Shown here: positions 8,129 through 10,370 of the stretch, piece by piece
Numbering within the stretch: the first letter of the stretch is position 1
Layout of the letters: the number at the start of each line of letters is the position of its first letter
Source: an uncultured Pseudoflavonifractor sp.
Lineage (GTDB): Bacteria > Bacillota > Clostridia > Oscillospirales > Oscillospiraceae
Assembly (NCBI GenBank): GCA_947425785.1
Contig: CANEAY010000016.1
Coordinates: 1-38,382, forward strand
Reading direction: 5' to 3'
DNA: 38,382 bases
Position numbers and translations under genes: made by a program
Notes under the pieces: generated by a model
Database searches by the model: none
What the model was told of the DNA's origin: nothing
The model's input: only the letters and a program-made list of their open reading frames with translations

Positions 8129-9208
8129 TTACTGCATGACCAGAGCCTTTGCTACCTCGGCCTTTAGATCCTCTGCAGTTCCGCCAAGCAGCTCTATCAT
8201 CTTGGCGTCACGCATCTTGCGCTCCACAGGATATTCGCGGCTGTATCCATAGCCGCCCATGACCTGAACGCACTTTCTGGTCAGATAGGGCGCCACATCT
8301 GCGGCAAAGACCTTCGCCATCTCTGCCACGACCTCTCCATCCTCTCCAGAGTCCTTTACCGCCGCCGCATTCCACGTCAAAGCACGCGCAGCCTCGGCCT
8401 TGGCCAACAGGTCGGATAAAAGCTGCTGGTTGTTTTCAAAGTGAGATACCGGCTTTCCAAACTGGATCCGCTGGTTGGCGTAGGGAATGGCTTCGGCCAA
8501 CGCCCCTTGCGAAATACCGGCGGCGATAGCCGCGCCATAGAGCGCCCGAAGAGTCCGCAGCGTTTTCTCCACACCGCCGCCGAGCAGGGCGTCGGACGCC
8601 GCCCTGCAGTTTTCCAGGCACAGCGTTCCGGCAGGGCAGCCTTTCAGTCCCAGCAGTTCCGCCTGTTTTTCCACCTTCAGGCCATCCTGCCCATTCTCCA
8701 ACAGGAACCAGAGGCGCTCCTCACCCTCCTGGGCGGAGACCACCAGCCACTTTGCGGCCTCGGCCAGAAGAACATGGCGCAGGCGGCCGCTAAGCACATA
8801 GCCGTCTCCCGCCTTTTCACAGGTCAGCCCCGCACCGTCAGCCACGGCGGCGAAGACCCCCTCCACCAAGGAGGGCAGCACCTGGCTCTTGCTGGTTTCG
8901 CTGCCGTATCTGCATACACATTCTGCCACAACGGCGTTTTCCGAGACTGCCCATGCCGTAGATGCACACTGCTTGGCAGTCTCCTCGATGACACAGCACT
9001 GGCTCCAGCAGTCCAGTCCCGCACCTCCCTGATCCTCCGGGAGCACACAGCTGAGCAGACCCGCCTCGGCAAGAACGCTCATTCCCTCCGCAGGGACAAC
9101 ACAGCCCTGATCCACGTGTTCGGAACGGGGCTTGATCTCGGCCTCGGCAAGATTTTGGGCGAGTTCGCGAAGCATACTCTGATCTTCTGTCAATACAAAG
9201 GTCTTCAT
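8129..9208 (-). CDS. Divergent acyl-CoA dehydrogenase lacking the catalytic Glu (ACAD2)
   Basis: A 359-aa acyl-CoA dehydrogenase homologue, shorter than its neighbours (381-382 aa). The usual YEGTxEIQ is LGGTAEDL, so the catalytic base is G342. The flavin-pocket motif [10 protein letters not shown] is replaced by VADGAGLTCEK, and CFIT/S is absent. It keeps the residues that act across the subunit interface: QRIQFGKP and QVMGGYGY. The start is the ATG at 9208 after a short purine-rich site; it follows the stop of ACAD3 by 16 bases. On its own it should not be a normal dehydrogenase. It may be the partner subunit of ACAD3, or a structural or hydratase-like derivative. Confidence 0.85.
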   Translation of the reverse strand: MKTFVLTEDQSMLRELAQNLAEAEIKPRSEHVDQGCVVPAEGMSVLAEAGLLSCVLPEDQGGAGLDCWSQCCVIEETAKQCASTAWAVSENAVVAECVCRYGSETSKSQVLPSLVEGVFAAVADGAGLTCEKAGDGYVLSGRLRHVLLAEAAKWLVVSAQEGEERLWFLLENGQDGLKVEKQAELLGLKGCPAGTLCLENCRAASDALLGGGVEKTLRTLRALYGAAIAAGISQGALAEAIPYANQRIQFGKPVSHFENNQQLLSDLLAKAEAARALTWNAAAVKDSGEDGEVVAEMAKVFAADVAPYLTRKCVQVMGGYGYSREYPVERKMRDAKMIELLGGTAEDLKAEVAKALVMQ

Positions 9209-9224
9209 TTTCCGCTCGCCCTCC

Positions 9225-10370
9225 TCATGCCTTGATATCAAGCTGACCGGCAATGACCATCAGCTGAATTTCATTGGTGCCCTCGTAGATCTCGGTGATC
9301 TTGGCATCCCGGTAATACTCCTCCAGCCGGGTGCCGCAGCTGCAGCCGTCCAGGCCGGTCAGCTCCAAGCACAGCCGGGCGGCCTCATTGGCCACATCGG
9401 AGGCGTAATATTTGGCCATGGCCGCCTCCTTACCGTACTTTTTGCCCTCGCTCCAAGCGGCAGCGGCCCGGTAGATCAGCAGTCGGGCGGCGTCGATCTT
9501 GGTCTGAAGCTCCGCCAGCCGGAACTGGACTCGCTGGGTATTGATGACAAAGCCGGTCTCCTCTGCGTGCTCCTTCAGATAGGCCACAGTATCGTCCCAG
9601 CAGGCCTGAGCAATGCCCAGGCCCTGGGCCGCGATCATCACACGGCCGCTGTCCAGGCACCCCAGAGCTATGCCCAGCCCTTTGCCCTTCTGCCCCAGCA
9701 GGTTCTCCTTTGGCACCACGCAGTCCTCCAAGATCAGTTCGCAGGTAGAGGAGGATCGGATACCCATTTTGTTTTCATGCTTACCGATGCGGAATCCAGG
9801 GAAGGTCTTTTCCACAATAAACATGGAAATTTTCTTTTTTCCATCCCCGATATCTGTCATGGCAGCAATAAGAAAGGTTCCGGCGATCTCGGCGTTTGTG
9901 ATAAAACATTTGGTGCCGTTGAGCAGCCAGTGGTCACCCTTGTCTTCGGCTGCCGTTCGCACCCCAGAGGCATCAGAGCCGGCTCCCGGCTCGGTCAGGG
10001 CAAACGCGCCAATGACCTTTCCCGAACAAAGGTCGGGCAAATATTTGTTTTTCTGCTCCTCCGTGCCGTGGCGGAGGATGTTGTCGGCCACCAGTTCGGT
10101 GCTCACATTGATGATACCCGCCGTGGCCGGGCTGGCCTTAGACAGCTCTTCCATGCAGAGGGTCGCCGAAATGAAGTCCTTTCCCAGCCCCCCATACTCC
10201 TTGGGCATGGGGATACCCAAAAGCTGGGCCTGGGCCATCTTCTCCAAAAGCTCCGGCGGAGTGGCGCCCTCTATCTCCATCTGACAGAATCGAGGGGCGA
10301 TCTCGTCCTTCGCAAAACGTTTGTAGTGCTCAAGATCCTGCATATGCGCAGGGCTCAGATTAAAATCCAT
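9225..10370 (-). CDS. Acyl-CoA dehydrogenase with altered FAD-interface motifs (ACAD3)
   Basis: A 381-aa acyl-CoA dehydrogenase with an intact own-subunit active site: [17 protein letters not shown], and catalytic E363 in YEGTNEIQ. The two motifs that normally reach into the adjacent subunit's FAD are lost. Where relatives have RIQFGKP this protein has AEETGFVINTQ, and where they have QxxGGYGY it has ELTGLDGC. These losses mirror what ACAD2 retains, so a mixed ACAD2-ACAD3 enzyme is the simplest reading. Gene order is ACAD4, ACAD3, ACAD2 in the direction of transcription, with 12- and 16-base gaps, suggesting balanced expression. Confidence 0.9.
   Translation of the reverse strand: MDFNLSPAHMQDLEHYKRFAKDEIAPRFCQMEIEGATPPELLEKMAQAQLLGIPMPKEYGGLGKDFISATLCMEELSKASPATAGIINVSTELVADNILRHGTEEQKNKYLPDLCSGKVIGAFALTEPGAGSDASGVRTAAEDKGDHWLLNGTKCFITNAEIAGTFLIAAMTDIGDGKKKISMFIVEKTFPGFRIGKHENKMGIRSSSTCELILEDCVVPKENLLGQKGKGLGIALGCLDSGRVMIAAQGLGIAQACWDDTVAYLKEHAEETGFVINTQRVQFRLAELQTKIDAARLLIYRAAAAWSEGKKYGKEAAMAKYYASDVANEAARLCLELTGLDGCSCGTRLEEYYRDAKITEIYEGTNEIQLMVIAGQLDIKA

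Follow-up and report, generated by a model that had tools for sequence, protein, structure and literature searches.

Heteromeric acyl-CoA dehydrogenases (ACADs) of alpha2beta2 composition are known from steroid-degrading bacteria. As described in PMC11153573, the alpha subunit of these enzymes provides the isoalloxazine site, the catalytic Glu and the substrate site, and the beta subunit binds the ADP-ribose part of FAD; such a division of labour is also given in PMC8399759 (see too PMC6678751). The examples named are ChsE4-ChsE5 (FadE26-FadE27), ChsE1-ChsE2 (FadE28-FadE29), IpdE1-IpdE2, Scd1AB and the fused CasC (PMC11153573, PMC8399759). As to gene layout, Scd1AB is encoded by adjacent genes and CasC by one fused gene. 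A search of the open-access literature by title and start of abstract brought up no report of heteromeric ACADs in Firmicutes; the part of PMC6851490 considered here deals with a different ACAD, and that of PMC6563040 merely names PimC/PimD-like subunits.

Here we describe two adjacent ACAD genes, ACAD3 and ACAD2, in the window, by which we mean the whole stretch of 38,382 nucleotides that was analysed, from an uncultured Pseudoflavonifractor sp. Like the steroid enzymes, whose FAD lies at the subunit interface (PMC11153573; PMC8399759), the pair consists of two ACAD-fold partners of which one has the catalytic Glu. Unlike the window pair, the steroid enzymes act on steroid side chains or rings and come from Actinobacteria and Proteobacteria, and the window proteins score far higher with the AcrC model than with IpdE2 (223 vs 40 bits for ACAD2, 396 vs 48 for ACAD3). 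In fold and in nearest sequence kin they resemble butyryl-CoA dehydrogenase (Bcd; 5ol2 of Clostridium difficile, 4l1f of Acidaminococcus fermentans and 1buc of Megasphaera elsdenii). These three structures we take to be homomeric, a single chain supplying the Glu and all FAD contacts; unlike homomeric Bcd, the window pair appears to divide the FAD contacts and the Glu between two proteins. The split-site type of ACAD is thus already known from steroid degraders, and the putative Bcd-like clostridial pair is a further variant of it.

The gene pair and its operon

ACAD3, the proposed catalytic alpha subunit (381 aa; 9225..10370, minus strand), has the Pfam ACAD N-terminal, middle and C-terminal domains above cut-off. 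In ACAD2, the proposed FAD-clamping beta subunit without an active site of its own (359 aa; 8129..9208, minus strand), the N- and C-terminal domains are above cut-off and the middle domain falls just under it (33.0 vs 33.3 bits). The coordinates and frames given for both genes in a preliminary description of this DNA agree with the ORF listing. The genes are separated by 16 bases with an AGGAGG ribosome-binding site (9220..9225, minus strand) that overlaps the ACAD3 stop codon and supports the ATG at 9208 as the start of ACAD2.

The pair lies in a minus-strand operon spanning about 14513 down to 631, which begins with genes for a FadX-like CoA-transferase, a MaoC-type hydratase and an enoyl-CoA hydratase, followed by ACAD1 (10383..11531, minus strand), ACAD3, ACAD2 and AbfD, the 4-hydroxybutyryl-CoA dehydratase/vinylacetyl-CoA isomerase (6642..8108, minus strand). 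The identity of AbfD is secure, with a match at E=3e-189 to PDB 1u8v, the dehydratase/isomerase of the gamma-aminobutyrate pathway. After AbfD come a nitroreductase, a thiolase and a 3-hydroxyacyl-CoA dehydrogenase (the latter two named from reading their translations), an enoyl-CoA hydratase, ACAD4 (1942..3087, minus strand) and a CoA-transferase resembling the butyryl-CoA:acetate type. ACAD1, by ORF and motif alignment, and ACAD4, by NCBIfam and motif alignment, are complete acyl-CoA dehydrogenases. The AbfD operon suggests that the substrate of ACAD3/ACAD2 may be a short hydroxy- or enoyl-CoA.

Divergent to the operon, at 14650-19077, are genes for a regulator of the LysR type and for a TRAP transporter, and dnaA lies at 26696. 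Between a trypsin-PDZ protease gene and dnaA there are two long plus-strand ORFs, 23261-25540 (759 aa) and 25732-26616 (294 aa), for which there is no Pfam match at E<=0.001. The window's genome (1.96 Mb, 39 contigs, 93.4% complete) has eight PF00441 domains, and a search of this assembly found neither ETF domain (alpha/beta; PF00766, PF01012); ETF alpha is present in two other genomes that figure below, G031 and G087. As a Bcd gene of the window's genome is truncated at the end of contig C30, an assembly gap is the likelier reason for the missing ETF domains.

Complementary motif losses in ACAD2 and ACAD3

The preliminary description had reported that each protein lacks motifs kept by the other, and alignment with complete enzymes bears this out (all positions below are on the minus strand). 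In ACAD2 the five motif positions read AVADGAGLT, HVLLAE, QRIQFGKP, VQVMGGYGY and LLGGTAE. The catalytic Glu is replaced by Gly342 (8183..8185), the LTEPxAGSD flavin motif is gone and GVFAAVADGAGLT stands in its place (8822..8860), and the two contacts to a neighbour's FAD, RIQFGKP (8450..8470) and QVMGGYGY (8243..8266), are retained. ACAD3 retains the catalytic base Glu363 (9282..9284), the own-flavin motif LTEPGAGSD (9972..9998) and the FITN flavin motif (FITNAE, its ITNAE at 9888..9902). Both neighbour-FAD contacts are gone from it: HAEET stands at the RxQFG position, with HAEETGFVINTQ (9534..9569) opposite RxQFG...FQ of the complete enzymes, and ELTGLDGC at the QxxGGYGY position, with LELTGLDGC (9342..9368) opposite VQxxGGYGY. 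ACAD1 and ACAD4 are complete at the motif positions in the same alignment.

One further residue of ACAD2, Glu258 (8435..8437), is Gln in 44/44 complete enzymes compared. It is shared with the ACAD2 relative of G031 and lies, in both ACAD2-type proteins, 11 residues past the Arg of RxQFG. Human isovaleryl-CoA dehydrogenase (IVD) is described as gripping FAD with two monomers, T200 on the isoalloxazine and the neighbour's Q323 on the adenosine (PMC12369846). Counted from Arg312, IVD Gln323 would be the residue turned to Glu258 in ACAD2.

LCAD and IVD are described as carrying the catalytic base elsewhere, on helix G (PMC11153573). At the column where we placed that base, ACAD2 has a deletion of two residues, the second Gly and the Arg of a GGR stretch. 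This deleted column is presumably the LCAD/IVD base position, and relocation of the catalytic Glu of ACAD2 to it was rejected, there being no Glu and two residues deleted. With no Glu at either base position, ACAD2 therefore has no recognisable catalytic base, and ACAD3, without RxQFG and QxxGG, therefore has no recognisable FAD clamp for a neighbour. A role of ACAD3 Asn88/Glu92 in the pocket was considered and dropped on an MCAD alignment, which we take to speak against it.

AlphaFold2 single-chain models of both proteins are confident ACAD folds (mean pLDDT 92.8 for ACAD2 and 91.8 for ACAD3), and their best solved matches are short-chain and butyryl-CoA dehydrogenases. No alpha2beta2 chain is among the 50 structural matches listed, an absence from which we draw no conclusion. 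The Pfam domains together with this fold match to solved ACADs place both in the ACAD superfamily. The ACAD3 model is less sure around the altered motifs, with pLDDT of 68 at 271-280 and 69 at 341-350. Because its model is a complete ACAD fold, ACAD2 appears to be a folded protein of the ACAD type that lacks a site, and not a fragment.

A second, diverged pair

A second pair is present in Oscillospiraceae bacterium isolate RGIG3171 from goat rectum (JAFSIK010000083.1; G031:C61), which belongs to another genus of the same family and holds the nearest named relative of the window pair. Its ACAD3 relative (377 residues) is 54% identical to window ACAD3 and its ACAD2 relative (313 residues) 32% identical to window ACAD2; the gene order is that of the window, and the genes overlap by 4 bases (stop/start). 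In the alpha the RxQFG is deleted and VDILGAEGC stands at QxxGGYGY, with IYEGTNE and LTEPNAGSD retained; the beta retains RRVQFKRR and VQVMSGSGY and has neither the Glu nor LTEPxAGSD. Conserved adjacency, for which the preliminary description had proposed a search across genomes, is therefore found, in the same order and with the same complementary losses. Both pairs found so far (n=2) stem from draft assemblies.

The surroundings of the two pairs differ. A gene that we take for a glutamate dehydrogenase adjoins the G031 pair; the 9 kb read around the pair contain no ORF for AbfD, nor one of the ACAD1 or ACAD4 type, and offer no clue to a pathway. The link to an AbfD operon drawn in the preliminary description is thus real in the window and absent from the G031 pair over those 9 kb, so that conservation of the pair does not extend to the AbfD operon. 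The other ACAD pieces in G031 (80% complete assembly) are only two fragments at contig ends, which we read as one Bcd-type gene cut in two.

Comparison of the two pairs over five segments, which were picked after the motifs had been seen, gives different patterns for the alphas and the betas. Between the alphas the TEP, WIT and Glu-loop segments are 12/16, 9/11 and 16/16 identical and the neighbour-FAD segments RxQF and QxxGG 2/14 and 6/18. Between the betas the corresponding values are 0/16, 3/11 and 6/16, and 6/14 and 12/18, QxxGG being the best kept of the five. The conserved parts thus swap between alpha and beta, a crossing that one would predict for an alpha acting on its own flavin and a beta acting on that of alpha. 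As the Glu-loop of the betas (6/16) is conserved about as well as their RxQF (6/14), the swap rests mainly on TEP, WIT and QxxGG. Alpha-specific residues common to both pairs include Asn88, Glu92, Glu161, Val244 and Met245, and beta-specific ones include Glu258.

Genome searches

A profile built from both true ACAD2 members, which score E 1e-168 or better against it (next best 1e-71 to 1e-73), detected the ACAD2 type, always beside an ACAD3 type, in 2/400 family genomes, and at E<=1e-74 solely in the window's own genome among 391 class genomes; as at most five candidates were scored per genome, distant members may have escaped, and the samples share some genomes. The six other candidates listed from the family search are complete enzymes. 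No search turned up one half without the other, subject to the same reservation about distant members. A search of 300 family genomes with ACAD2 alone (E<=1e-63) matched two, the window's own and G087; the G087 match was rejected as an ACAD2 type, the enzyme being complete. A profile of the two ACAD3-type proteins matched 72/394 order genomes, and the 29 further matches given loci (L044-L072) are complete Bcd-type enzymes; as only these were read, the order may hold more ACAD3-type genes. An exact-match DNA pattern scan of a public genome collection (described by its tool as covering 84,980 species), which may leave out the window's own genome, gave four matches. One is JAFSIK010000083.1, whose proteins are 100% identical to those of G031:C61; the other three, at places with no ACAD, were set aside as chance.

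The tandem ACADs of G002:C3 and G005:C69 were rejected as further split pairs, not being complementary. Two more apparent tandems were discarded, G043:C6 as one ORF matched twice and G018:C23 as one gene in two overlapping frames, read as broken.

We also surveyed the motifs of 75 ACAD ORFs or fragments, one short contig-end match being left out, from 60 genomes including the window's own (23/60 with any ACAD match). All checks are passed by 55/75. The 20 failures comprise the window and G031 pairs (four genes), three genes that belong to a separate clade, four genes in which only QxxGG varies, L089, two masked sequences and six fragments. Full-length genes that lack both the Glu and the flavin motif number just two in this survey, ACAD2 and its counterpart in G031, and an ACAD3-type gene lies immediately upstream of each. 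Since the double loss is confined to these two betas in that position, it is more than chance.

Both neighbour-FAD motifs are also gone from the three separate-clade genes (L030, L031 and L118), so that the loss is not unique to ACAD3 and does not by itself prove a split site. These genes keep the Glu (L030:4718-5902 with 5931-7076; L031:7155-8729 with 5992-7158; L118:648-1811), and 2/3 have a tandem ACAD neighbour in which the readable motifs are retained (one is partly masked). The clade may be another heteromeric case, or its enzymes may bind FAD otherwise. Its genomes, G002 and G005, belong to the same genus as the window.

Two other variants were seen. In the AcrC-like ACAD L089:397-1647 of G005 the catalytic Glu gives way to Ile (IWIGTSE), and the other motifs are present. 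L068:271-1428 in G111 has Gly for the Glu (ISGGTGE) and a changed RxQFG motif (QRIVKGQE), and lies directly upstream of a complete Bcd-type gene, L068:1432-2610.

Phylogeny

In a tree of 67 ACADs, which does not include the FadE26-29 sequences, the two ACAD3-type proteins cluster together (100/100), inside a group of weak support (88/86) whose other members are complete Bcd-type enzymes. The two ACAD2-type proteins make up a second clade (97/98), whose sister is a complete ACAD of genome G087 (93/82). Window ACAD2 keeps its place beside the G087 enzyme (SH-aLRT 93) when the G031 beta and the long-branched L068_271 are omitted; omission of window ACAD2 instead leaves the G031 beta without a resolved position. 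The end branches of the betas are 1.46 and 3.08 changes per site, and the tree program warns that the two are long and meet. Because the beta sequences are very diverged, their grouping could partly reflect long-branch attraction.

The G087 enzyme (L037:5802-6941; also L080) lies directly upstream of AbfD, the operon position held by ACAD2 in the window, and unlike ACAD2 it has the catalytic Glu and all flavin motifs. AbfD is followed in G087 by genes read as enoyl-CoA hydratase, nitroreductase, thiolase and 3-hydroxyacyl-CoA dehydrogenase. There is no second ACAD directly beside the G087 enzyme, and within the 12 kb read only an ACAD4 relative at the end. Upstream of this operon, L037:7024-10452 encodes, to judge by the translations, an MBL-fold hydrolase and a BaiH/old-yellow-enzyme-like reductase, gene types not seen in the window operon.

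The NCBIfam AcrC model (NF042972) gives 223.4 bits for ACAD2 and 395.9 for ACAD3, both below its 640-bit cut-off, and IpdE2 gives 40 and 48 bits, far under the AcrC scores. Scores with PimC and PimD (TIGR03204 and TIGR03203; cut-offs 623.85 and 652.7 bits) are also well below cut-off, ACAD2 having 55.5 to PimD and ACAD3 95.6 to PimC and 84.9 to PimD. The best PDB match of both subunits is 5ol2, the Bcd of Clostridium difficile. As both subunits are closest to clostridial AcrC/Bcd by NCBIfam and PDB, an origin separate from the steroid ACADs is favoured. This closeness to butyryl-CoA dehydrogenase suggests that the pair may have arisen independently of the steroid alpha2beta2 enzymes.

Discussion

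The preliminary description had predicted that the two proteins form one mixed enzyme, and at the level of sequence this prediction is supported: the complementary losses recur in the diverged G031 pair, the two halves fall in separate clades, and the searches found neither by itself. Because the same split recurs in a distantly related genome, ACAD2 and ACAD3 most likely work only as a mixed complex, and a mixed enzyme is the best reading of the pair. In both pairs only one partner has the catalytic Glu (E363 in ACAD3, G342 standing in its place in ACAD2); judged by their motifs, alpha keeps the isoalloxazine contacts and beta the ADP-ribose contacts for its partner's FAD. We consider it very probable that ACAD3 and ACAD2 are alpha and beta of one acyl-CoA dehydrogenase (or enoyl-CoA reductase), probably alpha2beta2 with two active sites, derived from complete butyryl-CoA-dehydrogenase-like clostridial ancestors. 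In this enzyme ACAD3 would bind the acyl-CoA and the isoalloxazine ring and supply Glu363 for catalysis, and ACAD2, having no working site of its own, would grip the ADP-ribose end of the FAD seated in ACAD3 with the RIQFG arginine, Glu258 and the QxxGG loop. We infer from these comparisons the assembly, the sharing of FAD, the stoichiometry and the history of the pair.

Having lost its catalytic and flavin motifs, ACAD2 could be a pseudogene in decay, next to an ACAD3 that needs no partner and binds FAD in an altered way, and the separate clade, which has also lost the neighbour-FAD motifs, means that their loss alone is no proof of partner dependence. However, both ACAD2-type frames are intact and come with a ribosome-binding site or a stop/start overlap despite branches of 1.46 and 3.08, the QxxGG segment is the best kept of the five (12/18), and beta-specific residues such as Glu258 are common to both, so we regard decay as improbable. 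ACAD2 might instead be a structural subunit of ACAD1 or ACAD4, both complete enzymes from the same operon; as these own their neighbour-FAD motifs, and as the 9 kb around the G031 pair hold no such gene and the rest of that 80% complete assembly two contig-end fragments only, we find this very hard to credit.

The beta branches are long and the G031 ACAD2 has no resolved placement without window ACAD2, so the two pairs might have lost complementary motifs independently, in which case the window pair would not be one conserved family. The alpha clade (100/100), the many alpha- and beta-specific residues in common and the shared gene order make such convergence improbable in our view, and if it did occur the mixed enzyme would still be supported.

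The ACAD2-ACAD3 pair would have arisen within Clostridia from complete, butyryl-CoA-dehydrogenase-like ancestors, ACAD2 decaying from a complete enzyme formerly beside AbfD. In the simplest history, that enzyme would have given up its active site once an ACAD3-type partner arose, and the pair would have moved elsewhere in the G031 lineage. On balance we favour the view that split-site alpha2beta2 ACADs have a second origin apart from that of the steroid enzymes, in which fermentative Clostridia derived them from butyryl-CoA-dehydrogenase-like homotetramers, with an ancestor-like complete enzyme still beside AbfD in G087 and the FAD clamp of beta remodelled (Gln to Glu258).

Annotation blind to these motifs would label ACAD2 and ACAD3 as separate acyl-CoA dehydrogenases. 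If our reading is true, an ACAD with one active subunit and one clamp subunit is not tied to steroids and can arise repeatedly from ordinary homotetramers, and the complete G087 relative would offer a close comparison for how an enzyme gives up half its active sites.
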